Virus record (IMG/VR): IMGVR_UViG_3300009506_000085
Location: 1 to 49,073 of that record
Length of the DNA stretch: 49,073 nt
Direction: 5' to 3' (one strand)
DNA from: a virus
The number at the start of each line of letters is the position of its first letter. Positions within the stretch are counted from its first letter, which is position 1. Of the stretch, positions 10,041 to 47,177 are shown piece after piece. Below the pieces are notes generated by a model, which was not told the origin of the DNA, searched no databases, and saw only the letters and a program-made list of their open reading frames with translations. The position numbers were made by a program, and so were the translations under genes.

Positions 10041-10351
10041 CCGACCCGATCCTTCACCCTGTTCCATACCTCCTGGTTCACACCATGTACCTCCTGGTTC
10101 ACACCATGAGGGAAGTCAGCAGTCTTTCTTCGGACCCTTGCCGGACGCCCGAAGTCCCGCTTCGTATCCTCGAAAGCATCCTCCAGCCCTCGACCAACCT
10201 TCTTGGCGAAGATGAAGCCTCCGGCCACGGTAGCAAAGAACAGCCCGATGTCCACGAGGAATGGGGTGAAGCACAGCAGCCAGCCAATCGGGATCAGACC
10301 AAAAGCCTTGAGCGTAATTAGAACACAAGCAATCAATGAAAACAATCCCAT
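10037..10351 (-). CDS. Two-span membrane protein with C-terminal repeat
   Basis: A 104-residue protein with two hydrophobic segments (about 5-35 and 38-50) and a basic C-terminal half. Residues near the end contain HGVNQEV twice in tandem, produced by a perfect 21-bp duplication. Second of three consecutive membrane protein genes. Function unknown; a lysis or envelope role is possible but unsupported. Confidence 0.65.
   Translation of the reverse strand: MGLFSLIACVLITLKAFGLIPIGWLLCFTPFLVDIGLFFATVAGGFIFAKKVGRGLEDAFEDTKRDFGRPARVRRKTADFPHGVNQEVHGVNQEVWNRVKDRVG
10067..10108 (-). repeat. Perfect 21-bp tandem duplication
   Basis: The unit TACCTCCTGGTTCACACCATG plus one base (21 bp) occurs twice head to tail at 10,067-10,087 and 10,088-10,108. 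It is in frame in the membrane protein gene and duplicates seven residues. Identical copies suggest a recent slippage event. Confidence 0.9.
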
Positions 10352-10835: not shown

Positions 10836-11108
10836 TCATAGCTGTCGGAGCCTATGAGCAAACTGGATCTCACCAGGGCACTGGGACATGCACTTCCAAC
10901 ATACCCCATCAGTCACATCGTACTCTACCATGCCTTCTCCCACCAGCCCAATGTATGTCTCACATGGGTGCCTATGGTAAAGTCTGGTGGGGTCGTCTAT
11001 GCGCCAATCTCCCATGTAGTACCCATCGTCCCCATCTGTCCCGTCAAGGACATAGACCCCGCGCTCCGGGGGCCCGTTGAATCCCTGGTACTTTACTCCC
11101 TTCAACAT
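10836..11108 (-). CDS. W-HxC-CxxC-P-E family member (dispersed)
   Basis: A 90-residue protein from ATG 11,108 (GGAGG four bases upstream). It has GDWRIDD, then LYHRHPC, then CWKCMSQCPGEI near the end. The last motif matches CWKCKQVCPDEI of the tandem-cluster member at 36,917-37,249. The C-terminal L-x-x-W helix is replaced by QFAHRLRQL. A likely divergent member of the phage's repeated small zinc-binding family. Function unknown. Confidence 0.65.
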   Translation of the reverse strand: MLKGVKYQGFNGPPERGVYVLDGTDGDDGYYMGDWRIDDPTRLYHRHPCETYIGLVGEGMVEYDVTDGVCWKCMSQCPGEIQFAHRLRQL

Positions 11109-11495: not shown

Positions 11496-11524
11496 ATTAT
11501 ATGTTTTTTCTCCGAGAATTGCAA
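11496..11524 (-). promoter_or_regulatory. Leftward promoter TTGCAA-17-TATAAT
   Basis: Minus strand: -35 TTGCAA at 11,519-11,524, a 17-base spacer and -10 TATAAT at 11,496-11,501. It lies directly after the helicase stop codon and would drive the small-gene operon to the left. The last part of the spacer (GAGAAAAAACA) resembles the promoter at 39,764-39,792. Confidence 0.75.
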
Positions 11525-12944: not shown

Positions 12945-13991
12945 CTAAAACAGATCCGCTGCATACCGCTTCGTCAGAATGATGCAGTGGCTTCGCAGCT
13001 TCTTGAAGTTTATGGTGGGGTCTTTGTGCTTTCGCAGAGCTGTCCACAGTTCTTCCTCGATCACCTCGTGGTACACGGTACCCAGCAGGCGGGGGATCAG
13101 CTTCGCTCGATGCCGCTCCTGCACCCGCTTCTCTCGTTCCCGGCACATGGTGAAGTACAGTGCGTCGTAGTACTGATCTCCATAACTTGGCTCACGCCCT
13201 TCGTTCACGTCCTCGTCCGTTAGCTGAGCCAGGATCTTGGCCCGAGTCTTATCCACCAGGGCCTTGGTGCAGAACTCCTCTGCGATCTCTCCCTCTACCT
13301 GCTTCTCCCCACCCTTCTCGGTGGTACCGAAGGCTCGACGGTTCTCTTCCTTGAAGTCGTTACGTACGATCTTGGCCCACGGCTGCTCATTGAAGCAGTT
13401 GCTCCACTCGTAGTTCTTGATGACGATGCCTTCGCCAACCCCGGCCCCATCCATGATGAGGTATGTGTTCAGCTCAGCCTCACGGTGTAGCTGCTCATGG
13501 CTAGGGGTAGAGAAGATACACAGTGGTTCAATGATGTCCAACCCTGCCGCCTTAATGATGGGCTCATACTCATCGTAGGGCAGGTACTTCTTCTTATCTC
13601 TATCATACACATCGAACACGTAGAACCTGCGCCACGCATCCTCACGGTATGTCTTCAGGGTGTGAGGCACTAGCCACTCACCATAGATAACCCAGTTGTG
13701 ACTACCATTGATGGCCACATCCAACAGTTTCTTGTTGTTCTCCGGGGCGTGGACCCACTGAAAGAACCCAGCGTTATCCTTCTCATCCGACAGTTCTCTA
13801 GTCCGAGAGCCACATTTGACGTTGTGCCCGCTGATAGCATTAGGCCCGTGCCACTCGATACCATCGAACCACACGCTGCCGTTCGTACCATCCAGCTTGG
13901 GGAACACGTACACATTCCCGATCTCTATAGCCTCGACCTTATCGTGACCTAGTCTTTCAACATGGTCGTACTTTCTGAATGACATCATCAT
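12945..13991 (-). CDS. RNA ligase, Rnl2-like nucleotidyltransferase
   Basis: A 348-residue nucleotidyltransferase. Motif I is FPKLDGTNG with the likely AMP-accepting K32; motif III is VIYGEWLVP, motif IV EGIVIKNYE and motif V AKIVRNDFKEE. The ligase core of about 240 residues is followed by a helical C-terminal domain, as in T4 Rnl2-type enzymes that seal nicked or broken RNA, often to counter host anticodon nucleases. Start at ATG 13,991 overlaps the upstream stop (ATGA); two more in-frame ATGs follow at once. Confidence 0.82.
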   Translation of the reverse strand: MMMSFRKYDHVERLGHDKVEAIEIGNVYVFPKLDGTNGSVWFDGIEWHGPNAISGHNVKCGSRTRELSDEKDNAGFFQWVHAPENNKKLLDVAINGSHNWVIYGEWLVPHTLKTYREDAWRRFYVFDVYDRDKKKYLPYDEYEPIIKAAGLDIIEPLCIFSTPSHEQLHREAELNTYLIMDGAGVGEGIVIKNYEWSNCFNEQPWAKIVRNDFKEENRRAFGTTEKGGEKQVEGEIAEEFCTKALVDKTRAKILAQLTDEDVNEGREPSYGDQYYDALYFTMCREREKRVQERHRAKLIPRLLGTVYHEVIEEELWTALRKHKDPTINFKKLRSHCIILTKRYAADLF

Positions 13992-14170
13992 CTCTCCCAC
14001 TGAATAAGTTTCATAAAACCCATAACATATGCAGGTACTTTTGTTTTACAAGATCCACACGTTCCCAAGCAAGAACAATAGTCACACTTATTACACAACA
14101 AGCAGGTATAACATGGCGTACCATCAGAAGAATAGACAGTCCAGTCCTTATCAAGTTGCATGCGGGCCAT
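13988..14170 (-). CDS. W-HxC-CxxC-P family member (dispersed, Cys-rich)
   Basis: A 60-residue protein from ATG 14,170 (AGGAG five bases upstream). It shows LDKDWTVYSS, then a dense Cys cluster (CYTCLLCNKCDYC) and the family ending CGSCKTKVPAYVMGFMKLIQWER, close to LVGFLTLIEWER in the member at 36,672-36,917. Nine Cys residues may bind two zinc ions. It overlaps the RNA ligase start. Function unknown. Confidence 0.7.
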   Translation of the reverse strand: MARMQLDKDWTVYSSDGTPCYTCLLCNKCDYCSCLGTCGSCKTKVPAYVMGFMKLIQWER

Positions 14171-18743: not shown

Positions 18744-19438
18744 TCTGATTCTTTCCTTATGATTCGGTACTGCTTGGTCTTCGCCATCTTCTTGACCCGG
18801 TTGGTGATCCGCTTGGTCTGTTCCTCCTCAGAGTACAACCCGTCTGCCAGCTCCTCAAGCATGTCGGGGATGGTGTTCACTCCTTCGATGAGAGTCTCGG
18901 GTTCCTCCGGCTCGGTGTCCACGTCAATCACATACCTCATGCACGTAGCCACGTCGGCCAGCCTGATGTTCAGCCTAGCCTTCAGCCGGTCGATGGTCTT
19001 CCGTCCTTTCTTCTCTAGCACCGCACGGTATAACTCGACGCACACGTCGGCGAAGGAGTCAAGGCCCTGCGTGTCCTCCCTCAACTTGCGGGTGGTGCGG
19101 TAGCCGTGCTTGCACTCAGCACACACAACCACCAAGTTGTCCGGCCTCGCCTCGCCACCCACATCAAGAGGCACATACCACATCAATCGGGCTGAAGTGT
19201 GGCTCTCCCTACCAAGGTAGCTCAGCGCCTTGTTGCAGAAGGCGCAGCGACCCTTGTAGTTCATGAAGCAATCCTCAGCATCAGCCTTAGTGACCTGAGG
19301 TATGGTGCCCCACCGCATGTCGGTGGCTGTTACTGTCCGGTATGATGCTTTGATCTCGGCGTTGATTTCATCTAGGCTCTTGGTCAAGAAGGAGCTGGTC
19401 CGCTTCTGCCTCCGCTTGTTCACCTTAGGTCTACCCAT
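18740..19438 (-). CDS. HNH-like endonuclease with missing first histidine
   Basis: A 232-residue protein with a basic N terminus and an HNH-type zinc module: CAFC, then MWYVPLDVGGEARPDNLVVVC, then CAEC. In HNH nucleases the position before the P..GG segment is DH; here it is WY, so the catalytic His is absent and activity is uncertain. The C-terminal 120 residues are helical and acidic. It may be a free-standing homing-type nuclease or a DNA-binding derivative. The ATG at 19,438 overlaps the upstream gene's end. Confidence 0.7.
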   Translation of the reverse strand: MGRPKVNKRRQKRTSSFLTKSLDEINAEIKASYRTVTATDMRWGTIPQVTKADAEDCFMNYKGRCAFCNKALSYLGRESHTSARLMWYVPLDVGGEARPDNLVVVCAECKHGYRTTRKLREDTQGLDSFADVCVELYRAVLEKKGRKTIDRLKARLNIRLADVATCMRYVIDVDTEPEEPETLIEGVNTIPDMLEELADGLYSEEEQTKRITNRVKKMAKTKQYRIIRKESE

Positions 19439-19859
19439 CGTCATCGTCCTTCCAATGTCCTGATTTGATGGCCTCATCCTTGTTCCGTTCAATGTCAGTT
19501 AGCCTCATTTTGACGTACTTCGGAGACCACGAGGACTGGTCATCCGCTGGTAGCCTCAATCTAGGGATGATGTCCATGTTATGGATCATCCATACAGAGT
19601 GCAGCTCAGGTGGAGCGTCGGCCATACAGAACCAGCACTTGCCCTTGATGCTGTCCTCGGCATCTAAATACCTGACCTCGGATTCTTGGTTGTCGAGTTC
19701 CTCATCCGTAAACTCAAAACGCAGAGCCTCACACTCATGCCATATGAATGACAGCATCATCTCACCTTCGGTAAGTTCCTTCTGTTCTTGACTGACCTCC
19801 TTCTCGTCAACCAACATCCACCCATTCACTTCCATCAGCGGCTTATGTTTCGCTCTCAC
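19431..19859 (-). CDS. W-HxC-CxxC-P-E-HN family member with C-terminal extension
   Basis: A 142-residue protein. LMEVNGWMLVDEKE, then FIWHECE, then CWFCMADAPPELHSVWMIHNMD give all elements of the small zinc-binding family found in the tandem cluster, followed by an extra 40 charged residues (SSWSPKYVKMRL...). A free-standing member within the replication region. Possible zinc ligands are His and Cys of WHEC and the CxxC pair. Function unknown. Confidence 0.75.
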   Translation of the reverse strand: MRAKHKPLMEVNGWMLVDEKEVSQEQKELTEGEMMLSFIWHECEALRFEFTDEELDNQESEVRYLDAEDSIKGKCWFCMADAPPELHSVWMIHNMDIIPRLRLPADDQSSWSPKYVKMRLTDIERNKDEAIKSGHWKDDDDG

Positions 19860-22585: not shown

Positions 22586-22832
22586 TTGGTTCTCCCATTA
22601 GTACGAACTCAGCATCTTCTGGTTTCTTTAGACCACACGCTCGGCACACGGGCGTCCCTTCTTCCAGTGTGGTTGGATGAAACCACATGCTCAGCTTGGT
22701 GCTTGTGTCCTTATGTTTGATGTTTCCGAACACACCCTTCTCTGTGAACCTGTCGATTACCTCCTCGTTTGTTGGTACTCCCAGGCAGAAATGGGTAACA
22801 TCTCCTTCTTGGTTCTTGAACCATTCAGTCAT
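22572..22832 (-). CDS. Truncated or divergent W-HxC-CxxC-P-E family member
   Basis: An 86-residue protein ending MWFHPTTLEEGTPVCRACGLKKPEDAEFVLMG. CRACGLKKPED matches the family's C-x-x-C-x4-P-E/D motif and MWFH the W/H segment, but the order is compressed and the terminal L-x-x-W is missing. It overlaps the 314-residue gene and abuts a clear family member. Function unknown. Confidence 0.55.
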   Translation of the reverse strand: MTEWFKNQEGDVTHFCLGVPTNEEVIDRFTEKGVFGNIKHKDTSTKLSMWFHPTTLEEGTPVCRACGLKKPEDAEFVLMGEPNDNR

Positions 22833-23074
22833 GCTCGCTCCCTTACCTCCCAGTTGTGCAGAATGTAGAGAGCCTCTATCTCTTCAGGAACGGGGTCTCG
22901 ACAATTACTGCACTTTGGAATGTGGTGTCCTTCTTTGTCGGTGAGATAACACCCACTGTTACATGGTTGATGCAACGGAAGTGATTTCAAATGACTTCCA
23001 ACCCCAGGCCTTGGTGTGACCAGAATCCAGTCATCAATCTCTAGTAGAACGGTCCTTCCTTCATACTTACTCAT
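22829..23074 (-). CDS. W-CxxC-P-E-HNW family member (dispersed)
   Basis: An 81-residue protein: LLEIDDWILVTPRPG, then LPLHQPCNSGC, then CSNCRDPVPEEIEALYILHNWEV at the C terminus. All elements of the tandem-cluster family are present. It overlaps the neighbours on both sides by 4-8 bases, next to a divergent member, so this is a local pair. Function unknown. Confidence 0.75.
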   Translation of the reverse strand: MSKYEGRTVLLEIDDWILVTPRPGVGSHLKSLPLHQPCNSGCYLTDKEGHHIPKCSNCRDPVPEEIEALYILHNWEVRERA

Positions 23075-24497
23075 TGGTCAGCTTGACCTCCACCTTCTTG
23101 CCCCAAGGCACGGACTGCCCTTCACCGTGCTCCTCAGGGTGCGCCCAGATCACAGGGTAGCTTGGCTTCTTACTTGGGAACGTAGTGAACAAATCAGTGA
23201 ACGCAATCACCATGCCTACCTTCTCAGTATGAAGACTGTCATTTACCTTATCGAACACATCAACATGCGATGTGCCACCCCGTGTCGCCTTGATCTTGTT
23301 GATGGTGTTCAGATCGTACTCCTCGATATGATAGCACTCCACATCATGGAAGTAAACCTTGAGGAACTTGCAGCCAGTCTCTCTCAAGATACCTGAACAC
23401 TCGGACACGAACTGAGTAAGCAGCTCATCACTGATGGACCCTGATGTGTCGATCATAATGATCGCACCGTTGGGTGTTCGTGTCCTTGATGGCAGCATCA
23501 TAGGTGAGCTGTGAGATCGTCTGCTTCTGCGTGCGAAGGAGTACCTACCCTTGAACACAGACGTAGCTTGCCTACGAATGTGCTCCTTCCATGTTACGCT
23601 GGGCTTTCGGATCTCAGCCAGGAACTCATCGGCGAAGGCGGGGTACTTCCCCTTGCCCTTTGATGCCAAGGCAGCGGCGATGACATACTGCTTGAACTTC
23701 TCAATGTCCTCGGCACTACCCGGCTCACCATGCATGTACCCTGAAGTGCAGCCTCGCTCACCTACTCCGTCGGTTCCGTCGGACTTCGGGCCACATTGGG
23801 AGCATGTCCCCCCAGGACCTTGACCATCGCCCTGTATGCTCTGTCCAGATCCCTGAGTTTCTGTGCCCTCATCACCTCCGCTTCCAGAACCTTTTTGATT
23901 CTCCATATCGCTTTCTTCTTTACTGCCACTGTCACCTCCGTCTTGTTGACCCGGCGGCTTGTGACCACAGTCACCATTTGGTGGTCCATGAGGACAGCCA
24001 CCGTAACTCTCAACTTCCTCCGGGTGCTTAAGCAGGTGGTAGTAAATCTGCTCCGTGGTATTGCCACGGTGCTTCTCCATCAGCTCAGGCGTAATGTTCT
24101 TCATACTGACTCGGGATTGCTTAAGCCCGGAGTCCACCAAGATCGTATCAACCTTGATGTCGGCGGCGATGTTCCATACCTTGTGGTTGCCACCATTGGG
24201 GAACCTCACGCTCGCACGTTGGACAAGGTGCATCACCTCATGGGCCAGCTCGAACATGACTTCCTCAACGTTAATCATGTCGTTGATCCAATCCGGGTGG
24301 TAGTATAGATTACCCAGGTGGTCAACGCAAGTCGTGCCAACTCCCGCTGTCCTTGATTCGTGCAACACCATCCGCATCACCAACTCACCGAAGAAAGGAA
24401 AGTGCATGAGCAACTGCATCCTCGCCTTGATGAGCCGATCCTTGGGATCTTTCCCCTTAATGCTCTTGAGTTGCTTACTGTCCGAATACTGCCTCAT
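23067..24497 (-). CDS. VWA-like metallopeptidase-type protein (DUF2201)
   Basis: A 476-residue protein. Residues 80-95 contain FELAHEVMHL, a HExxH zinc motif. After a low-complexity Gly/Ser/Asp/Gln linker (about 185-250), a C-terminal von Willebrand A-like domain shows MIDTSGSIS, a MIDAS motif. This layout matches DUF2201-type proteins that are encoded beside MoxR-like AAA ATPases, as here (24,863-25,999). Such pairs are thought to remodel or activate protein complexes by insertion of metal or conformational change; the phage target is unknown. Confidence 0.85.
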   Translation of the reverse strand: MRQYSDSKQLKSIKGKDPKDRLIKARMQLLMHFPFFGELVMRMVLHESRTAGVGTTCVDHLGNLYYHPDWINDMINVEEVMFELAHEVMHLVQRASVRFPNGGNHKVWNIAADIKVDTILVDSGLKQSRVSMKNITPELMEKHRGNTTEQIYYHLLKHPEEVESYGGCPHGPPNGDCGHKPPGQQDGGDSGSKEESDMENQKGSGSGGDEGTETQGSGQSIQGDGQGPGGTCSQCGPKSDGTDGVGERGCTSGYMHGEPGSAEDIEKFKQYVIAAALASKGKGKYPAFADEFLAEIRKPSVTWKEHIRRQATSVFKGRYSFARRSRRSHSSPMMLPSRTRTPNGAIIMIDTSGSISDELLTQFVSECSGILRETGCKFLKVYFHDVECYHIEEYDLNTINKIKATRGGTSHVDVFDKVNDSLHTEKVGMVIAFTDLFTTFPSKKPSYPVIWAHPEEHGEGQSVPWGKKVEVKLTNE

Positions 24498-24506
24498 ATT
24501 ATTACC

Positions 24507-24587
24507 TCACAATACAGCACAGATTAGCTGCGCCACTAGATCCACCGGGACGTAGAGGCACATGACTCTATGGAATAGCATCACCAT
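24507..24587 (-). CDS. Transmembrane micro-peptide (26 aa)
   Basis: A 26-codon frame starting MVMLFHRVMCLYVPVDLV, hydrophobic throughout, filling the 90-base gap between two genes. GGAG lies seven bases upstream, inside the end of the upstream gene. Short, so the call is tentative. Confidence 0.4.
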   Translation of the reverse strand: MVMLFHRVMCLYVPVDLVAQLICAVL

Positions 24588-24588
24588 C

Positions 24589-24846
24589 TTACTTCTCCCA
24601 TTCAAGTAGTTTCAAGAACCCTTGCATGGTTTCGGGCGGTGGTTTTTCACATGCCAAGCACACTTTATAAAATACTCCTGTTGGTGTCCATTGTGGTCCT
24701 TCTTGCCATGAAAAAGCACCACGAGGACAGTAATGAATTGGTATGTATTCGGTGTGCATTATGTCAAGTGTAAGAGAACGGTATGTCCTTCGTAGGAGTC
24801 TCCATTCTCCGTCTTCTATTAGCGTACAAGTGCTTCCTATTTCCAT
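24589..24846 (-). CDS. W-HxC-CxxC-P-E-W family member (dispersed)
   Basis: An 85-residue protein: LIEDGEWRLLRRTYR, then PIHYCPRGAF, then CLACEKPPPETMQGFLKLLEWEK. It carries the complete family signature, with the ending closest to the GFLKLL-type members at 36,373-36,672 and 36,672-36,917. Placed between the MoxR-like and VWA-like genes, so it is co-transcribed with that pair. Function unknown. Confidence 0.8.
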   Translation of the reverse strand: MEIGSTCTLIEDGEWRLLRRTYRSLTLDIMHTEYIPIHYCPRGAFSWQEGPQWTPTGVFYKVCLACEKPPPETMQGFLKLLEWEK

Positions 24847-24862
24847 GATTTACCCATTGATG

Positions 24863-25999
24863 CTAGGCATCGGGGTTGGCGAGGTACGTACCCCACCTCT
24901 TGTACATCTCCTGAAACTCAGGAGTCTGTGCCGCCTTCACTCTGTCCTTCTCACTCAGCTTGTTGAAGGCGATGGAGGTTGCCATCTTGGCGATGAGCAG
25001 TCCGTACTCCGGCTCCATTTCCGGCCGCAGCACGTAGGTCAGAGCGTCAACCCAGTGCTTGTGGTACTTCGGCTGGTTGATGTAGAACTCCAGCGCCGAG
25101 ATGGTGGCATAGAGTACGTCGATCTCCCGCTTGTCAGGCACCCTTGCGTGCTTCGGATCGGCCACGATTTCCTCTGGTCTTACCAGACTGGTCGTGTTCT
25201 TGGCGAAGGTATTGAACTCCATCCCTGTACCTGCACCAATGCACCCAACGGCGGCAGGGTACAGCCATGAGCCCTGCACTCCACCACTCGGGTCGATCTT
25301 GAACATGGACTTACTCAGCAGTTCCCATGTTCTCGGGGTGGGAAACGCCTTCTCACTGGTCGAGGTCTTAACGATCTCATCGAACCGATTGAGTGCGTTA
25401 CCCTGCGTTCTGATGTACGCCGTGATGAGGGGGTGAATCTTCCCCACGTCAGTGGCCCAAGCGAGCCACGCATCCACGTCGGACTTGGCATAGTAGTGCT
25501 TCATCCGATTGGCCAGAGCCAGCGGCATCTCGAACGCAGCCGACTTGTCCTCGATCCGATTCCCTGCCCCGATGATGTAGACGTTATCACGGAGCGGCAG
25601 GTTACCGACTCGCTTCTCACCGAACACCTTGAAGCAGGCGGCTTGCGTCTGCTCGTGGCCGGTCACGATGTCATCGAAGAAGATGACCATTGGGCCTTGA
25701 TGTTCGGGCGGGGCGAACTCACTTGCGTTGTACGCCCACAGTGGCACCAGAATGTCCGTTGCCACGTTGACCCCGGCCTCATTGACATGAGGGTGAGGGA
25801 CACCACTAATATCAGTGGGCTCCGAACACCCAGCCAGGACCAGCACGATCTCGTGATCGTGGAAGGTCTGCTTGGTGGCCTCAGTCTTGCCGATACCCGG
25901 CGATCCCCAGATCATGCTCGGAATCTCGGGACCAAGCTGCCGAATGATCCGAAGGATGTCGGCCACGTTCTGTTCTGAAAGCTCCATGTCTCGTGCCAT
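24863..25999 (-). CDS. MoxR-type AAA+ ATPase
   Basis: A 378-residue ATPase. Walker A is GSPGIGKTEATKQ (about residue 32), Walker B is VIFFDDI, and IIGAGNR forms sensor 1. It follows the MoxR pattern of a short N terminus, AAA core and helical lid. Residues 276-374 resemble residues 45-143 of the Tat-signal protein at 29,870-30,475. It is encoded upstream of the VWA-like partner in one operon; the two probably act together on a protein substrate. GGAG precedes the ATG. Confidence 0.87.
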   Translation of the reverse strand: MARDMELSEQNVADILRIIRQLGPEIPSMIWGSPGIGKTEATKQTFHDHEIVLVLAGCSEPTDISGVPHPHVNEAGVNVATDILVPLWAYNASEFAPPEHQGPMVIFFDDIVTGHEQTQAACFKVFGEKRVGNLPLRDNVYIIGAGNRIEDKSAAFEMPLALANRMKHYYAKSDVDAWLAWATDVGKIHPLITAYIRTQGNALNRFDEIVKTSTSEKAFPTPRTWELLSKSMFKIDPSGGVQGSWLYPAAVGCIGAGTGMEFNTFAKNTTSLVRPEEIVADPKHARVPDKREIDVLYATISALEFYINQPKYHKHWVDALTYVLRPEMEPEYGLLIAKMATSIAFNKLSEKDRVKAAQTPEFQEMYKRWGTYLANPDA

Positions 26000-32800: not shown

Positions 32801-32876
32801 TGGTAGGCCACCTAGGAATTGAACCTAGCCGCTGAAGTTTATAAGACTTCGCCGCTCAACCAGAGACGTGTGGCCC
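32801..32876 (-). tRNA. tRNA-Ile (anticodon UAU)
   Basis: A 76-nt tRNA on the minus strand with encoded CCA. Acceptor GGGCCAC/GTGGCCT (first pair G-U), anticodon arm GAAGT-CTTATAA-ACTTC giving anticodon UAU (AUA codons, Ile), variable loop AGCGG, T arm CTAGG-TTCAATT-CCTAG, discriminator A. The D arm (GTCTCTGGTTGAGCGG) keeps the GG but pairs poorly. This would supply a tRNA for rare AUA codons, or replace a host tRNA cut during defence. Confidence 0.85.
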
Positions 32877-32881
32877 CAGCA

Positions 32882-33232
32882 CTAGCGAATCAGCTTGGCT
32901 CGCTTCTCCTCAGCAAACTGACGGAGCCTCGGGCTGAATCTGTCACGTGCAATCACTCGATCCAGAAACGCAAGCCGAGACTTGACCGCGTAAGCATCGT
33001 CCTCGTCGAGGTCGTGGTTCAACTTGAGGGTGCGCTCGATCTTCCCCTTCTCTCGCTCCCGCTTCTCGATCAGGTGGGTGTGGATCCTAGCCAATGCTCG
33101 CCACATTCCGCCAAGCTCCCGCCCTTCTCGATCCTCGTTCAAGATCATTTCGTAAACGTCGTCCAGCCTGGCCTCGCAAGTCTCGATGACCGCACGAGAG
33201 TAAGCCAGTCCTGCCCTATTTCTGTTTCTCAT
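32882..33232 (-). CDS. Helical charged protein (116 aa)
   Basis: A 116-residue protein from ATG 33,232 (GGGAGAG upstream), almost entirely helical with repeated Arg/Glu/Lys and no Cys-pair motif. Its ATG overlaps the upstream family gene's stop. Possibly a coiled-coil or DNA-binding protein. Family unknown. Confidence 0.65.
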   Translation of the reverse strand: MRNRNRAGLAYSRAVIETCEARLDDVYEMILNEDREGRELGGMWRALARIHTHLIEKREREKGKIERTLKLNHDLDEDDAYAVKSRLAFLDRVIARDRFSPRLRQFAEEKRAKLIR

Positions 33233-33444
33233 CACACTCTCCCTTCGTACAAGATCAGTAGTGCCTGGATCTCTTCGGGGACACGTTCCCCACAAGCGAT
33301 ACAGGAAGCGGGGTTCTCGGTGGTAAGCCAAGCGATCCTGGTTACACTTTTGCAGAGCGAATGTGTGGCGAAGGTAATACGCCCAATGCCAGGGTCGTTT
33401 ACTTCTTTGATAAACCAGGACCCTAGTCTAAACAGTATCTTCAT
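33232..33444 (-). CDS. HxC-like CxxC-P-E family member (dispersed)
   Basis: A 70-residue protein from ATG 33,444 (GGGAGG three bases upstream): FRLGSWFIKEVND, then FATHSLCKS, then CIACGERVPEEIQALLILYEGRV. It shares the W, H/C and CxxC-x4-P-E elements with the tandem cluster; the terminal tryptophan is replaced by Tyr/Glu-Gly. Function unknown. Confidence 0.75.
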   Translation of the reverse strand: MKILFRLGSWFIKEVNDPGIGRITFATHSLCKSVTRIAWLTTENPASCIACGERVPEEIQALLILYEGRV

Positions 33445-35109: not shown

Positions 35110-35436
35110 TTAATCGTTTAACGCCAACAAATTCCAGTTGTGGAGGATCCATAGGGTCCGGACGCTCTCAGGGGCCCTTTGGCCGCAGTAATTACAGGGC
35201 ACTTTGGTCCCAATCGTGCCGAATCGGTGGGTCGTGTAGGTGTAAGAGTCGTATGATTTCCGTGACTTAGGGCAAACGTGGAATACAAGGCTGTCCCAAG
35301 GCGAATTAGGGTACTGAAAACACCATTCTTGGGGAATCAGGTACCAATCTCCCTCTTTATGCAGGCAGTGGCGGATGTCGGAATCGTAAACTTGTTGTGA
35401 TTTAACGTCTGAAGTAGCGTCTGAAGTAGCTGCCAT
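35110..35436 (-). CDS. Tandem zinc-family member 11 (last of the cluster)
   Basis: A 108-residue protein: CLHKEGDWYLIPQEWC, then LVFHVCPKS, then CNYCGQRAPESVRTLWILHNWN. Complete family signature. Its start region encodes ATSDATSD from a 12-bp tandem repeat (35,406-35,429) that the overlapping upstream gene reads as YFRRYFRR. The ATG has GGGGGATGAAAG upstream and lies inside the upstream gene. Function unknown. Confidence 0.85.
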   Translation of the reverse strand: MAATSDATSDVKSQQVYDSDIRHCLHKEGDWYLIPQEWCFQYPNSPWDSLVFHVCPKSRKSYDSYTYTTHRFGTIGTKVPCNYCGQRAPESVRTLWILHNWNLLALND

Positions 35437-35698
35437 CTTTCATCCCCCAGGCTACGGGTTCGAACTCTTTGAGTTGGTCCCAATTGTACAGTTTGTACAG
35501 TACCACGAAGCTCTCAGGGACCTTCGCCCCACAATAACAACACTCCCCGATGATGGCGTTGTCCCTGGGGAACCAGTTTCCGTACCGAGATGAAATGGAC
35601 TTTTCACAACTGTCATGACAGGCCCAAACGTACCCCCCTACAAGCGAAGTCCGTTCCAGGGACCAGCCATCTTCAGTCAGGAGAGTGCTGTCACTCAT
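35402..35698 (-). CDS. Tandem zinc-family member 10
   Basis: A 98-residue protein: LLTEDGWSLERTS, then WACHDSCEK, then CCYCGAKVPESFVVLYKLYNWDQL, with an extra basic tail (SYFRRYFRR). In this copy the H-x-C motif reads C-H-D-S-C. It overlaps the upstream member by 8 bases and the downstream one by 35. Function unknown. Confidence 0.85.
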   Translation of the reverse strand: MSDSTLLTEDGWSLERTSLVGGYVWACHDSCEKSISSRYGNWFPRDNAIIGECCYCGAKVPESFVVLYKLYNWDQLKEFEPVAWGMKDGSYFRRYFRR

Positions 35699-36008
35699 TG
35701 AGGGCGTCCCAGTTGTGGAGGAGCCATAGCCCCTGGATTTCCTCAGGGCACACGTCTCCGCACTGAGGGCAGGGAAGATTCAATGTTTTCACTACCAGGC
35801 GCCACATCCCGTTCCAGCTATCGATCTTTATCGGGCACTCGTGCCAGATCACGCTACTGAGGTAGTTCATGAGGAACAACCCATTCCCAACGGACTTCCT
35901 ATCCAGCAGGTACCAGTCTCCTTCCCGGTGCAAGACTGTGGCATATAGGTCCTCGATGGGTTTGACTTTCCAAGTGATTTGATGTAGTTTGAATTTAGAT
36001 ACGGTCAT
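35691..36008 (-). CDS. Tandem zinc-family member 9
   Basis: A 105-residue protein from ATG 36,008: VLHREGDWYLLDRK, then VIWHECPIK, then CPQCGDVCPEEIQGLWLLHNWDAL. Nearly ideal family consensus. The region upstream of 36,008 overlaps the end of the preceding gene in another frame, so the short start is chosen. Function unknown. Confidence 0.85.
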   Translation of the reverse strand: MTVSKFKLHQITWKVKPIEDLYATVLHREGDWYLLDRKSVGNGLFLMNYLSSVIWHECPIKIDSWNGMWRLVVKTLNLPCPQCGDVCPEEIQGLWLLHNWDALNE

Positions 36009-36016
36009 TGTTGGTC

Positions 36017-36376
36017 TTATTTGTAGAGTCTGGTCTCTTCTGAGATGTTGTCGAAGTTGTGGATTAGGTACGTTCCTAGAATGCTCTCCGGAGGCTTCCT
36101 GCCACACATCTCACAACGCCACGCAGGCTTTACTAGACGGCCCCTTTGGTCCCAGCGGGTGTACCCTACTGAATACAGCACAAACTGAAGCTCAGTTGCG
36201 TTGGTACTGGTTGGGACCCAGACCGTGACTTCTTCTTTGTTGGGGTTGCACTGGTGCCAGAAAGACGATCCTTCGGGCTCTTTCCATAGTGACCACCGCC
36301 CCCGCTTCATGAGGAGGTGGGGCGAAGCGTAGTCGTCTGGCTCATCAGGGCGTACGGGTACGGTTGTCGTTTTCAT
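36017..36376 (-). CDS. Tandem zinc-family member 8
   Basis: A 119-residue protein from ATG 36,376 (GTGGGAAAG upstream): LLMKRGRWSLWKEPEG, then FWHQCNPN, a longer middle segment, then CEMCGRKPPESILGTYLIHNFDN. Phe replaces the last Trp of the family. It overlaps the upstream member by four bases. Function unknown. Confidence 0.85.
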   Translation of the reverse strand: MKTTTVPVRPDEPDDYASPHLLMKRGRWSLWKEPEGSSFWHQCNPNKEEVTVWVPTSTNATELQFVLYSVGYTRWDQRGRLVKPAWRCEMCGRKPPESILGTYLIHNFDNISEETRLYK

Positions 36377-36672
36377 CTTTCCCACCTTAGTAGCTTGAGG
36401 AAGCCTTCCAGCTCCTTGGGGGCTGGGTGGTGGCAGCCCAGACACCTCCCCGCCTCTTCCCACATCTCATGGAAAATCTCCAGCTTGGATTCTCCGTGGC
36501 AGTAGTGCCCGATCTTATACAACCCGCGGATCTCGGTGTGGGTCCAGTCTACAGTCCAGTCCCAGACGATTACCCACTCCCCATCCCGAAACACCACCGT
36601 ACCAAACTTCATATTGTTTTCTTTGTTCATTTCAACCAACTTATTAGCAAGCGTGGTAGCCGTATGAGACAT
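36373..36672 (-). CDS. Tandem zinc-family member 7
   Basis: A 99-residue protein from ATG 36,672 (GGAGAGGTG upstream): VVFRDGEWVIVWDW, then IGHYCHGES, then CLGCHHPAPKELEGFLKLLRWER at the very end. The ending GFLKLL.W resembles the dispersed members at 13,988 and 24,589. Function unknown. Confidence 0.85.
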   Translation of the reverse strand: MSHTATTLANKLVEMNKENNMKFGTVVFRDGEWVIVWDWTVDWTHTEIRGLYKIGHYCHGESKLEIFHEMWEEAGRCLGCHHPAPKELEGFLKLLRWER

Positions 36673-36917
36673 CACCTCTCCCATTCGATCAGCGTAAGGA
36701 ACCCCACCAGGCTATCTGGAGGCACATCCCCACAGAAGCAGCACGCATCGTTATCCGTGTACCGGGGCTCTGGGTCCAGGCGTTCGCAGTTGTGCTGGAG
36801 GCCGTGGGTACCCCAGGGGTCCTTGACCACATGCCACCTCGGGTCTTCGGGGGCCTTGAACACGACCTCCCAGGATTCATAGTTGCTGTGCTGGAGTTTG
36901 CGGAGGGAAGGGTGCAT
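36672..36917 (-). CDS. Tandem zinc-family member 6
   Basis: An 81-residue protein from ATG 36,917, whose start overlaps the upstream stop (TAATG). PEDPRWHVVKDPWG, then LQHNCERLD, then CCFCGDVPPDSLVGFLTLIEWER. The shortest tandem member. The much longer frame to 37,094 runs over the upstream gene and is rejected. Function unknown. Confidence 0.85.
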   Translation of the reverse strand: MHPSLRKLQHSNYESWEVVFKAPEDPRWHVVKDPWGTHGLQHNCERLDPEPRYTDNDACCFCGDVPPDSLVGFLTLIEWER

Positions 36918-37249
36918 TACTTCAACGCGTCTTCTGCGATCCCGAACAAACAGTTCAGCTCTGGGAGGTCTTTTGTGTACGTCTCGATGTTGATGGAGTC
37001 CCAGTTGTGGAGCTTCCAGGCTGCGCTGATCTCGTCCGGGCACACCTGCTTGCACTTCCAGCAGGTGATAGGGTTGCAGGTGATCTCGCGCCACGTGATG
37101 AACCGGCTCACCGTGAACCTCGCCGCTATGGGGTTACAACAGTGGTAAATCCACGAATCGAAGTTCTGTGTGCCGTTTATCCGGAACAGCAGCCATTGTT
37201 TGTCGGCCATCAGCACATCCTCTGGCTCCATGCCAACTCCTAGCTTCAT
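36917..37249 (-). CDS. Tandem zinc-family member 5
   Basis: A 110-residue protein from ATG 37,249 (GGGAGAGG upstream; ATG 37,285, which overlaps the upstream stop, is an alternative). MADKQWLLFRINGTQ, then WIYHCCNPI, then CWKCKQVCPDEISAAWKLHNWDS and a 27-residue acidic tail. The Cys motif is the best match to the dispersed member at 10,836-11,108. Function unknown. Confidence 0.85.
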   Translation of the reverse strand: MKLGVGMEPEDVLMADKQWLLFRINGTQNFDSWIYHCCNPIAARFTVSRFITWREITCNPITCWKCKQVCPDEISAAWKLHNWDSINIETYTKDLPELNCLFGIAEDALK

Positions 37250-37281
37250 TGCCTCTCCCACGACTTGCATCTCGAATCCAA

Positions 37282-37545
37282 TCATCGATCCCAATTGACC
37301 AGCTTCTGGAAGCCAATCAGCTCCTCAGGGATGGGTTCACTACAGGCCGAGCACCTTTTGTCCCTGATACCGGTGAGCCCAACTATGATTCTCCACTCTT
37401 CTCCTTGACAGCAGTGACCAATTGCTGCGAATCGTCGTGGTGTCGGTGGGCTTAGCTGGTAGTCCACGAACAACACCCAGTCCCCCACGCGGAGGAGTTC
37501 TTTTCCCACATCACCTTCCCAGGGGTTCAGGCTCAGGTCAGGCAT
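37282..37545 (-). CDS. Tandem zinc-family member 4
   Basis: An 87-residue protein: LLRVGDWVLFVDYQ, then AIGHCCQGE, then CSACSEPIPEELIGFQKLVNWDR. GGGAGG lies five bases before the ATG. Its TGA overlaps the alternative ATG of the next gene. Function unknown. Confidence 0.85.
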   Translation of the reverse strand: MPDLSLNPWEGDVGKELLRVGDWVLFVDYQLSPPTPRRFAAIGHCCQGEEWRIIVGLTGIRDKRCSACSEPIPEELIGFQKLVNWDR

Positions 37546-37862
37546 TGTTCCTCCCAGTCTTGTGATAACGTATCAAAGTTATGAAGGAGCCACTGTTGGA
37601 CTATGTCTTCTGGGGGAGGCACGTCACACAGCGTACAGGCTGTCTCCATGACATGTATAGAATGCCAATACCCTAATGAGTCGTACGGTGCCCCCATAGG
37701 ACTACGCAGCTCCGGGGTCCATTCAGGGCATTTGTGTACGATGATACTATTGCGTCCTACGTAAGAGAACCAAGGATCTGCGTGATACGTAGGCACAATG
37801 AACCACTCTTTGGTCCGGTCGGTTGCCACGGCCTTGGAAATATCTGTGAGGTCTTCCATCAT
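37533..37862 (-). CDS. Tandem zinc-family member 3
   Basis: A 109-residue protein: TDRTKEWFIVPTYHAD, then IIVHKCPEW, then CTLCDVPPPEDIVQQWLLHNFDTL plus a short tail. The ATG overlaps the upstream TGA. Function unknown. Confidence 0.85.
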   Translation of the reverse strand: MMEDLTDISKAVATDRTKEWFIVPTYHADPWFSYVGRNSIIVHKCPEWTPELRSPMGAPYDSLGYWHSIHVMETACTLCDVPPPEDIVQQWLLHNFDTLSQDWEEQCLT

Positions 37863-38314
37863 ACGATAATCGGAGTCGGTACAGGAGGTGTCATTATGAC
37901 CTTATGGCTCCTCTGTAGGGCATCCCAGTTGTGCAGCTTCCAGAGGGCTATGATCTCAGGGGGCACGGTCATACAGCAGTAGTGGCAGACCCCATGATTG
38001 ACCATCGTATAAACATCTGGTGATATTTTAACATGAGCCGACGGGCAGTAATGAGCTACCCAAGAGCCATCTTCTGGGAACTCAAGCACTCTTTCGATCC
38101 ACCATCCATCTTCTTCAAAGACACGTTCGGGTCGTACTTTTTGTGCGAGTACCTGATCTGCTGTAGTCGTAGCGAACTTATCAGTAGACTTTCGGTAAAT
38201 CGGTGCCTTACCATCAAATAAATGACACCTCCTCGAACCATTCACCGGATCATAGATCCGTGCACATCGCGAACAATCACAGGAATTGTTGGGAGAGATT
38301 AGCTGCTGACTCAT
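37859..38314 (-). CDS. Tandem zinc-family member 2 with extra N-terminal Cys domain
   Basis: A 151-residue protein from ATG 38,314 (GGAGGTGTGG upstream). The first 60 residues add a Cys-containing segment (CDCSRCARIYD ... RRCHLFDG). The family domain follows: FEEDGWWIERVLEF, WVAHYCPSA, CHYCCMTVPPEIIALWKLHNWDAL, then a Pro-rich tail. The largest member of the cluster; a second metal site is possible. Function unknown. Confidence 0.85.
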   Translation of the reverse strand: MSQQLISPNNSCDCSRCARIYDPVNGSRRCHLFDGKAPIYRKSTDKFATTTADQVLAQKVRPERVFEEDGWWIERVLEFPEDGSWVAHYCPSAHVKISPDVYTMVNHGVCHYCCMTVPPEIIALWKLHNWDALQRSHKVIMTPPVPTPIIV

Positions 38315-38679
38315 TCCACACCTCCGTGCTGTTGGACCCACTCCCAGTTGTGCAGCTTCCACAACCCACGAATTTCGTCAGGAGCTTGCGAATCACAATA
38401 TGAGCATCTCCCAGAGCGCGCGTCAACGGCGTTGTTGTACAAGCGCATCCTATCATATTCATTCCGACACAGGTGGTACAGGATGGACTTTTCTTTCTTA
38501 TACTTGTAGAGACTCCACAACCCTTCTTTGTGAAGAAGAGTGCCAAACTCTGTGTCTTCTTCTATATTCCACATACTCATGGCTCCGTGAATCGGTGACT
38601 GAAGGTTCTGCATCTGGGAAACGAAGTCAACTACGTACCTCCGTAGGAGCATGTCTCCCAGTGTATTGAAGGTAACCAC
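38311..38679 (-). CDS. Tandem zinc-family member 1
   Basis: A 122-residue protein from GTG 38,679, overlapping the upstream TAG; ATG 38,652 with GGGAG close by is an alternative start. LLHKEGLWSLYKYKK, then ILYHLCRNE, then CSYCDSQAPDEIRGLWKLHNWEW. First complete family copy in the tandem run. Function unknown. Confidence 0.83.
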   Translation of the reverse strand: MVTFNTLGDMLLRRYVVDFVSQMQNLQSPIHGAMSMWNIEEDTEFGTLLHKEGLWSLYKYKKEKSILYHLCRNEYDRMRLYNNAVDARSGRCSYCDSQAPDEIRGLWKLHNWEWVQQHGGVE

Positions 38680-38867
38680 TACTTCAAGGTAGTGACGCCT
38701 TTCTTAAGGCGACACCCCTCCTTGCATTGGAACATGATGCTTTTCTTTCCGAACAGCTTGAAGGGTGTCATCACGATGTCGTGGTCAAAGCAGTAGTGCT
38801 TCCGTTCCGGCCCCGCCGGGCCAGGGAGAAACATCTTTTTGGTCGTGTTCTTGTTTTTCTTCGCCAT
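38679..38867 (-). CDS. Small basic protein with Cys/His residues (62 aa)
   Basis: A 62-residue protein from ATG 38,867 (GAGGTG upstream). Lys-rich N terminus, then HYCFDHDIV and FQCKEGCRL, which could form a four-ligand metal site. It lacks the family's W and P-E motifs. Cotranscribed at the head of the tandem cluster. Function unknown. Confidence 0.65.
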   Translation of the reverse strand: MAKKNKNTTKKMFLPGPAGPERKHYCFDHDIVMTPFKLFGKKSIMFQCKEGCRLKKGVTTLK

Positions 38868-39088
38868 TAAATGTTCACCTCGTTCAATCGTACAGCCATT
38901 GATAGTCCCTCGTCCAGCGTGTACCCACATCCGGTGCACCAGTACATTGGGCCTTCTTCGTTCTCCCGTAGCAGCATCATCCTACTACCTTGTCGGCCAT
39001 CTCTTCCTTTGCAGTAGTGACAAACAATTATATCACCACTGAGGTAAGTCTCTAGGCTAACATTCTCGGCGATCTTTTTCTCGACCAC
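38867..39088 (-). CDS. Zinc-ribbon-like protein (73 aa)
   Basis: A 73-residue protein from GTG 39,088, overlapping the upstream TAG. ENVSLETYLSGDIIVCHYCKGRDG, then MYWCTGCGYTLDEGLSMAV: two CxxC pairs 35 residues apart, as in zinc ribbons. The much longer frame upstream runs over other genes. Function unknown. Confidence 0.65.
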   Translation of the reverse strand: MVEKKIAENVSLETYLSGDIIVCHYCKGRDGRQGSRMMLLRENEEGPMYWCTGCGYTLDEGLSMAVRLNEVNI

Positions 39089-39450
39089 TAGAGTTCCAGT
39101 TCCATGATAATTATTGCTTTGATTCCGGTTGAGAGTGGCTCGTCGCAGAATCTGCACTTGCCGTAGATTCGCACAATCCCTCCCGCAGTACGGAATCTCT
39201 CTACTCCCCAACCACTCGCCGCACGGATTCTGCCGTCGTGGCACGCATGCGCAAGGCGTGCCTCCAGCTTCTTTTGGTCGGCCTTCCATCGCTGGAAGCT
39301 GAACCCTAGAGGTCCATTCAGATAGTCTCTGAGTCTCTCCCTCTCTTTCGCTATTCGTTTGTCGATTACTGAGGAAGGGCACCAATACCATCCGTCCACT
39401 AAGGGCCACCCTTCGCGCTTTACCAGCGTTCGGCGGCGATAGACTCTCAT
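39088..39450 (-). CDS. Divergent zinc-family member at the cluster head
   Basis: A 120-residue protein: VKREGWPLVDGWYWC at the start and CRFCDEPLSTGIKAIIIMELEL at the end. The W-x-L start and the CxxC-x3-P ending match the family in layout, with a helical Arg-rich insert of about 60 residues between them. It overlaps the first gene of the operon by four bases. Membership is probable. Function unknown. Confidence 0.65.
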   Translation of the reverse strand: MRVYRRRTLVKREGWPLVDGWYWCPSSVIDKRIAKERERLRDYLNGPLGFSFQRWKADQKKLEARLAHACHDGRIRAASGWGVERFRTAGGIVRIYGKCRFCDEPLSTGIKAIIIMELEL

Positions 39451-39758
39451 GCTGTTCCCTCATACCCAGTCCCTTTCCCATCGGCCCAGATCTCACACAT
39501 GTCTTTGTCTGTTTTGAATGTCTCGTTGCATTCGAAGCACTCGTAGTGCCCATGGCAGTTTCGCCAGATCACTCGTCCTGCCTTGCAGGCATAGTACTCT
39601 CCTGTTTCTCTGGTCATATCCTCTAGGACACAGATGTGAAGTAGAGGCTGGACCTCACCATTAACATCATCTGCCCGAATGAACTGTTGGTCATCCGAGA
39701 GATCTTCCTTGGGGATCTTGTAGAGCCCCGTTCCATCAGCGATTTCAGTTAGCTTCAT
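39447..39758 (-). CDS. First gene of the tandem operon, possibly leaderless
   Basis: A 103-residue acidic protein: PLLHICVLED, then C-H-G-H-Y-E-C-F-E-C and a helix with CEIW. The H-x-C and CxxC elements recall the family, without the P-E-NW ending. The ATG at 39,758 lies five bases after the -10 TATAAT, so the mRNA would begin at or near the start codon with no room for a Shine-Dalgarno. Function unknown. Confidence 0.65.
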   Translation of the reverse strand: MKLTEIADGTGLYKIPKEDLSDDQQFIRADDVNGEVQPLLHICVLEDMTRETGEYYACKAGRVIWRNCHGHYECFECNETFKTDKDMCEIWADGKGTGYEGTA

Positions 39759-39763
39759 GCCCC

Positions 39764-39792
39764 ATTATAGGATTTTTTCTCCAAGATTGCAA
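39764..39792 (-). promoter_or_regulatory. Leftward promoter of the tandem cluster
   Basis: Minus strand: TTGCAA at 39,787-39,792, 17-base spacer ending AAAAAATCC, TATAAT at 39,764-39,769. The predicted start site falls at about 39,757, on the ATG of the first gene. It is back to back with a rightward promoter whose -35 begins eight bases away. Confidence 0.85.
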
Positions 39793-39799
39793 GAAGCAT

Positions 39800-39828
39800 T
39801 TGCAATTTCTGTCAGAAAATCCTATAAT
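39800..39828 (+). promoter_or_regulatory. Rightward promoter 1, TTGCAA-17-TATAAT
   Basis: Plus strand: TTGCAA at 39,800-39,805, spacer 17, TATAAT at 39,823-39,828, with AAAATCC before the -10. It mirrors the leftward promoter at 39,764-39,792. Confidence 0.85.
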
Positions 39829-46132: not shown

Positions 46133-46500
46133 TGGCTGACAAGAAGTTCATTCGCTCATCTAGATTCCGATCCATCTGCGAGGTTATCCGAGAAGCATAC
46201 TGGCTGACCAATGACCCCGAGGTGAGGAGCAGATTGGTCGAGGCTTCAAAGATGGCAAAGAAGATGGGAAATAAGCTAATTGAGTACAAGTTCGATAAGA
46301 AGTTTGAGGAGATCGATAGAAGAGAAGGGCTCGACGCGTATTACGGCATGATGGAATACAAAGAAGTAAAAGAGCACGGTGATGTCGCTGCGGAGCGTAA
46401 GGCTCAGTATCGTAAGGAGCTAGAGGAGGAGAAGAAGGCAGCACTCATGAAACTTGAAGAACATCCTGTAGATGTGGAGCCTAAGGAGTCTGATAGCTAA
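46132..46500 (+). CDS. Conserved small phage protein near terminase
   Basis: A 122-residue protein from ATG 46,132, overlapping the terminase stop. RFRSICEVIREAYWLTNDPEVRSRLVEASKMAKKM resembles a short helical protein found in several phage genomes (EVIKEVYW...DPEV...LVEA..MAK). The C terminus is Lys/Glu-rich. Function unknown. Confidence 0.7.
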   Translation: MADKKFIRSSRFRSICEVIREAYWLTNDPEVRSRLVEASKMAKKMGNKLIEYKFDKKFEEIDRREGLDAYYGMMEYKEVKEHGDVAAERKAQYRKELEEEKKAALMKLEEHPVDVEPKESDS

Positions 46501-47177
46501 TGATTTCTTTTCCTGAGTTCAATTTCGTATTTGTTGGGATTCCGAAGACAGGGAGCAGCTCTATGCAGGCTCGGCTGTTTCGATTAGGCACAGCAGATCC
46601 CAACTCGCAGGCTAGGCACGACATAGTCTTCTATCCGAACGCTCAACACTACACCCTCAAAGAATATGAACAGATCCTTGGAGAGGAGATCGAATCTCGA
46701 TTCAAGTTTGCTTTCGTTAGGAATCCGTGGGACAGATTGGTGTCTAGTTACACCCGGGAATGCACAAATTGGAGAAATAGATTCTTGTTTAGAGACGATC
46801 TATTCAATGTAAAGAAGTTTCAGAATTGGGTGCCTCACGTTTTGTTTCCTAATCGACGGGCTCCTAATCGACGATGTTCTAGATACCCAACAAGGCTCTC
46901 AATCCCTCAGCTCAGTATGATTATGCATGAGCGTATTGAGATGGATTTCATTGGACGATTTGAGAACATCGAATCTGATTTCGAAACGGTGCTTAATAGG
47001 ATAAACAGCATATACTCGCTTCCACCCCGCAAACATTGGAAGCTTCCGAAGATTAACATATCGCACGGCGCTACAGAACACTACAGTTTTTACTACAATG
47101 ATGAATTAGTTGATATGGTCCATGCAGTCTACAAGAGAGACATTGACTACTTCGGCTACGAGTTTGAAAGAGCCTAA
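46500..47177 (+). CDS. Sulfotransferase family protein
   Basis: A 225-residue protein. FVGIPKTGSSSMQARL (12-26) is the 5'-phosphosulfate loop and FVRNPWDRLVSSY (72-84) the 3'-phosphate loop (R74, S82/S83) of PAPS-dependent sulfotransferases. Typical length for bacterial Sulfotransfer_2 members. It lies in a run of glycan-modifying genes, so the acceptor could be a capsule, lipopolysaccharide or virion glycan. Starts overlapping the preceding gene by one base. Confidence 0.82.
   Translation: MISFPEFNFVFVGIPKTGSSSMQARLFRLGTADPNSQARHDIVFYPNAQHYTLKEYEQILGEEIESRFKFAFVRNPWDRLVSSYTRECTNWRNRFLFRDDLFNVKKFQNWVPHVLFPNRRAPNRRCSRYPTRLSIPQLSMIMHERIEMDFIGRFENIESDFETVLNRINSIYSLPPRKHWKLPKINISHGATEHYSFYYNDELVDMVHAVYKRDIDYFGYEFERA

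Follow-up and report, generated by a model that had tools for sequence, protein, structure and literature searches.

A diversified family of small, probably zinc-binding proteins present in about 30 copies per genome in a group of ~120-kb phages

A single homologous family of small domains, amplified to some 30 copies in each phage genome of ~120 kb and arranged as an array of 11-14 genes plus single genes, was demonstrated starting from a 49,073-base stretch of DNA that is a whole virus record (the window). This record very probably represents only part of a phage type of ~119.5 kb, since two relatives, G3 (IMGVR_UViG_3300037246_000990, 119,599 b) and G4 (IMGVR_UViG_3300005253_000004, 119,470 b), carry direct terminal repeats of 87 b and 121 b, respectively. 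The relatives were found via the helicase, TerL and MoxR genes.

A first-pass annotation had reported eleven consecutive leftward genes between 35110 and 38679. These genes are present on the minus strand and encode proteins of 81-151 aa when their starts are refined. Both array limits are correct, and the start of the gene at the upper limit is uncertain (ATG 38580 or GTG 38679). The genes are as follows.

35110-35436, minus strand: array member 1, 108 aa, the last gene of the operon (HMM 5e-32)
35402-35698, minus strand: array member 2, 98 aa, with CHDSC at the first ligand pair
35691-36008, minus strand: array member 3, 105 aa
36017-36376, minus strand: array member 4, 119 aa, clustering with G3_36635/G4_86128 from the arrays of the relatives
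36373-36672, minus strand: array member 5, 99 aa
36672-36917, minus strand: array member 6, 81 aa
36917-37285, minus strand: array member 7, 122 aa
37282-37545, minus strand: array member 8, 87 aa
37533-37862, minus strand: array member 9, 109 aa
37859-38314, minus strand: array member 10, 151 aa, with an additional N-terminal Cys-rich part (CDCSRC...C), clustering with G3_34944/G4_87049
38311-38580, minus strand: array member 11, 89 aa (AF2 model, pLDDT 78)

Stops and starts overlap between most neighbours, by 1-13 bases and in one pair by 35, which suggests translational coupling. The other array members are 22-32% identical to array member 1, and an HMM built from the eleven sequences recovers every one with an E-value no higher than 4e-17. 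The DNA shared between array copies does not exceed 41 nt and lies over conserved codons, mainly of the knuckle-helix part; the copies are therefore considered old, and recent duplication or gene conversion within the array was dismissed.

The count of eleven was too low. The family profile adds at least seven copies elsewhere in the window, giving 17 members at threshold, or 18 when the short member at 13988-14170 is included. The further copies are listed below.

10836-11108, minus strand: scattered diverged member adjoining DnaB, in a slot common to G1, G2, G3, G4 and G5
13988-14170, minus strand: scattered short member with the C-terminal signature and a diverged N-terminal half
19431-19859, minus strand: scattered member, 142 aa, between HNH-like and sigma-like genes, with a G2 orthologue
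22829-23074, minus strand: scattered member coupled to the DUF2201 gene
24589-24846, minus strand: scattered member between the DUF2201 and MoxR-like genes, in a slot common to G2, G3, G4 and G6
33232-33444, minus strand: scattered member, 70 aa
39088-39450, minus strand: diverged member upstream in the array operon, with G3/G4 orthologues (56-57% identity)

An iterated profile identified 108 members in seven contigs, namely the window (17), G1 (6), G2 (6), G3 (29), G4 (33), G5 (8) and G6 (9), and the core genes are collinear across all seven. In the replication module nearly every gap is filled by family members, with 0-3 copies per gap. Near TerL, the window, G3 and G4 have a homologous array in matching position, with 11, 14 and 12 genes, respectively. 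About half of the G3 and G4 copies are located in this array, and the other half are single genes between replication genes in conserved order. A tandem array of eleven was thus too narrow a description of a family that has about 30 copies per genome, half of them scattered through the replication module. At 23067-25999, a MoxR-like ATPase gene stands beside a gene for a DUF2201 metallopeptidase/VWA protein, and together they form a chaperone-like pair that is kept in the clade. The window also contains a tRNA-Ile (anticodon TAT) at 32801-32876 on the minus strand, and a sulfotransferase family 2 gene (46500-47177), an unusual phage cargo, adjoins the terminase region.

The profile was tested against three controls. 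It had zero matches at E 0.1 in 6,007 reversed ORFs, a best E of 0.0085 in 30,035 shuffled ORFs, and a best E of 0.09 in 75 unrelated viral loci outside the clade (1.15 Mb). Because the controls give nothing below 1e-4, the family does not reflect a chance motif, and the earlier view of one amplified and diversified family stands on HMM membership with clean controls. The least probable of all the explanations considered is convergence of unrelated small proteins on a common zinc knuckle. C-x-x-C motifs are indeed common and the remainder of the proteins mostly differs, but the members have in common the order and spacing of W-x-L, H-x-C, C-x-x-C-x4-P and the helix, and their HMM scores extend over the full domain with zero matches at that level in the controls.

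The breadth of the family was investigated in two scans for the C-x-x-C...P...L...W pattern over 2.9 million viral contigs, which yielded 14 and 31 stretches. Many of these belong to the present clade, including the added contigs L159, L169 and L184, and the other stretches are mostly chance. Two contigs from metagenome 3300022665 have family members and no tested core gene in common with the clade. L172 encodes two members (428-709 and 1101-1334), and L157 (IMGVR_UViG_3300022665_000067) encodes one minimal member of 63 aa (10132-10323) that sits between 3'-5' exonuclease-like and deoxyribosyltransferase-like genes. The L157 contig also carries genes for ThyX, ribonucleotide reductase and glycosyltransferases, and both contigs apparently represent an unrelated phage group. 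As judged from these two contigs, the family appears to be rare, yet it is found beyond one lineage. A viral-contig scan with a five-member alignment gave 21 candidate stretches, none of which was confirmed, and four members used as tblastn queries found no match in 50,697 phage records. Absence outside the contigs found is weak evidence, since the pattern scans require exact patterns. A search of bacterial and archaeal genomes with the TerL alignment, made to find a host, gave no match.

The signature proposed for the eleven array proteins was retained in part. The W-x-(L/I/V) and C-x-x-C-x4-P elements are present in all eleven, whereas H-x-C is present in ten and is replaced by CHDSC in the protein encoded at 35402-35698. 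P-x-E/D is found in about seven of the proteins, and the remainder have P-E/D-S. The final W-D/E helix is well conserved within the array, but across the family Trp occupies the column in 51 of 84 filled rows, so that its proposed role as a binding element in all members is unsupported family-wide. The possibility that the terminal W-E is kept merely as the ribosome-binding site of the next gene was also considered and set aside. Trp occurs in 36 of 66 long-tailed and 17 of 41 short-tailed members and, as these frequencies are about equal, a protein-level constraint is an at least equally good explanation.

The proposed metal site is supported, with the refinement that its putative second ligand alternates between Cys and His. 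Four conserved putative Cys/His ligands, as for a single zinc site, were found. Of 107 aligned rows, 101 have His as the first putative ligand; at the second, 89 have Cys and 16 have His (C/H in 105, 98%), and both cysteines of C-x-x-C are present in all 108 aligned members. A position at which Cys and His replace each other behaves as a metal ligand does, and the swap at ligand 2 therefore supports the putative site. The family proteins probably bind zinc. AF2 models of array member 11 and of the 63-aa L157 relative (pLDDT 88, pTM 0.72) agree in placing three strands before a helix at the C-terminus. There are strong indications of a domain in which one zinc ion (H-x-C/H plus C-x-x-C) closes a three-stranded sheet and a helix forms the C-terminal part, and we infer that the four putative ligands converge in space. 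No catalytic residues were found among the conserved positions of the family, which makes a binding role the most likely one.

Reciprocal best hits in G4 were identified for 23 of the 29 G3 members, in essentially the same order and with a median identity of 61%, compared with 79% for 152 other G3-G4 ORF pairs, a set that may contain some spurious ORFs. In each of the 23 pairs dN/dS (Nei-Gojobori) is about 0.2-0.5, with some dS values close to saturation. The orthologues are thus under purifying selection, and the copies are real, individually maintained and faster-evolving genes. It is highly improbable that they are functionless or decaying duplicates. The extreme divergence of the paralogues and their variable number would suit such an origin, but it is already contradicted by the selection analysis, with low ratios in 23 of 23 pairs, and by the retention of the ligands and of open frames throughout. 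Identity between G3 and G4 orthologues is 0.49-0.51 in two loops, where the alignment is noisy, versus 0.64-0.82 in the strands, knuckle and helix, with the maximum (0.79-0.82) in the helix and the first strand. In a family tree of 71 columns, in which few deep forks are resolved, the array members of the window cluster partly together and partly with G3/G4 array members. This clustering indicates an old array that has received lineage-specific additions.

The array shares an operon with three small Cys-containing proteins of differing motifs encoded upstream (38679-39088 and 39447-39758). These genes and the promoter are as follows.

38679-38867, minus strand: small Cys-containing protein outside the family
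38867-39088, minus strand: small CxxC...CxxC protein with a probable GTG start at 39088, outside the family at threshold
39447-39758, minus strand: the first gene of the operon, a small Cys-rich protein with a different motif
39759-39792, minus strand: sigma-70-type promoter TTGCAA-N17-TATAAT, its -10 box ending 5 nt before ATG 39758

The promoter arrangement is repeated in G3 (33297/33309) and G4 (89759/89771). In all three, only 5-6 bases separate the -10 box from the first ATG, which suggests that the first gene of the operon is leaderless. The same promoter class precedes DnaB, and from this promoter context we infer that the array is expressed early. Two divergent TTGCAA-N17-TATAAT promoters are present at 39759-39828. 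A recurring class, TTGCAA...AAAAGC/TCC-TATAAT, marks operon starts at 11524, 39792, 39800 and 41077 in the window and at similar sites in G1-G6, and the window contains AAAATCCTATAAT more often than expected (5 observed versus 0.5). Storage or buffering of zinc by many Cys-rich proteins was considered as a role for the family and is very unlikely. Cys makes up 4.1% of the family proteins versus 1.2% of core proteins, and further Cys-rich genes occur in the same operon. However, each protein has only one four-ligand site, and the diversification of the sequences far exceeds what buffering needs.

A conserved scaffold, diverging loops, the maintenance of many copies and an operon of early type would fit a group of binders whose partners differ. 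The preferred reading, held tentatively and at somewhat below an even chance, is that the proteins are zinc-stabilised binding scaffolds with variable loops that are made early and have a partner each, mostly host proteins. The scaffold would be stable, and the partner would be chosen by the two variable loops, the tails and the helix face. The copies would be produced early in infection, and every copy would bind a different protein, most likely mainly of the host, for take-over or counter-defence. If each copy does bind a different protein, duplication followed by loop divergence would supply new binders while old ones are retained. The broader proposal of a binder library on one zinc-stabilised mini-scaffold, with ~30 inherited and individually maintained binders per genome, each for a different protein, and new ones arising by duplication inside the replication operon, is possible but doubtful. 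The suggestion in the first-pass annotation that many host targets are addressed is thus plausible. Two observations count against host partners. Half of the copies lie among the replication genes of the phage itself, where phage-internal partners fit equally well, and purifying selection with stable G3-G4 orthology is unlike an ongoing arms race. None of the family members matches a known counter-defence protein.

Two serious rivals place the partners inside the phage. Small zinc transcription factors or nucleic-acid binders that tune many phage promoters or mRNAs are an unlikely but substantial alternative. Each genome has several promoters of the same class, and a comparable role has been proposed for the ~35-copy zinc-ribbon family of Bacillus phage G (PMC7824862). 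The present proteins, however, are mostly acidic to neutral (median pI 5.3-6.0), which is atypical of general nucleic-acid binders, and no conserved basic patch occurs in the conserved columns of the aligned members. About 30 regulators would also far outnumber the recognisable promoters, and there is no homology to the phage G members tested. Still less probable are adaptors for phage replication enzymes, each coupled to an adjacent core gene (helicase, ligase, DnaB, DUF2201/MoxR). Such adaptors would fit the single copies found in seven of the seven main contigs at conserved positions among the replication genes, often with start/stop coupling, as well as the two flanking genes of the minimal member in the unrelated phage. 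Against them, the same neighbour may have 0-3 copies in its slot, so that no core enzyme needs its own copy, and the array of 11-14 genes has no core-enzyme neighbours. Mainly host partners are most likely and remain the first choice over both.

Early phage genes mostly encode unrelated small proteins of unknown function, and their targets are sought one by one. Here one recognisable fold furnishes ~30 small proteins per genome, and the profile from the present analysis can be used to annotate further members. One structure together with parallel pull-downs could reveal whether phages build libraries of binders on a single scaffold.

The statement that the proteins belong to no known family survived searches of 97 members against Pfam, PHROGs, NCBIfam, PADLOC and PDB sequences as well as three fold searches. 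No covering family was found in the first four, where the only marginal match (E 0.0099, one member, in a PHROG/NCBIfam/PADLOC test at E 0.01) is at chance level, and PDB sequences gave no match to the family. Foldseek, run twice against PDB and once against BFVD, returned nothing significant, the local matches being short zinc knuckles. The Lar restriction alleviation family (PF14354), a small zinc protein of phages that also has C-x-x-C and a Trp-containing C-terminal helix, was rejected. It had no match at E 1 in G3/G4 and none among the 97 members, and its N-terminal CPxCG knuckle is absent from the present family. DUF6980 (PF22400) was also rejected, as its single weak match (E 0.02, 15.5 bits versus a curated cut-off of 27 bits) spans the C-x-x-C half of one member, and it has no match at E 1 in G3/G4.

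The early host take-over proteins of lytic phages of the T4, T7 and SPO1 types are small and usually mutually unrelated. Their genes resemble the present ones in being small and clustered behind a sigma-70-type promoter, whereas here a single fold furnishes the whole set. Bacillus phage G is closer in kind. A lineage-specific expansion of ~35 zinc ribbons in its 498-kb genome, termed unprecedented, has been described, and transcription factors or structural DNA-binding proteins were proposed (PMC7824862, the sole published discussion of a comparable expansion found). As here, one genome contains many diverged copies of a small Cys-rich protein (e.g., gp32, YP_009015343.1), zinc-ribbon-like in phage G, and the copies are partly clustered (gp32, gp34, gp35, gp37 and gp46). 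In phage G, CPxC...C-x3-C is combined with an ENDRYL helix at the C-terminus, a knuckle order opposite to that of the present family, in which H-x-C/H comes first and C-x-x-C-x4-P second. A profile built from these five phage G members, and 140 kb of phage G, were compared with the present family in both directions, and nothing was found below E 0.09; hhalign of the two profiles gave a probability of 7.5% over 19 columns. By these comparisons, the phage G members tested and the present family appear to be non-homologous. The family, the clade and the arrangement are new, and phage G is the one described precedent for this kind of phenomenon. Tens of paralogues per genome, as in phage G, are found in the two terminal-repeat genomes (29 and 33 copies), at a density of 29-33 copies in 119.5 kb versus ~35 in 498 kb, and these phages provide a second, non-homologous case of the expansion.
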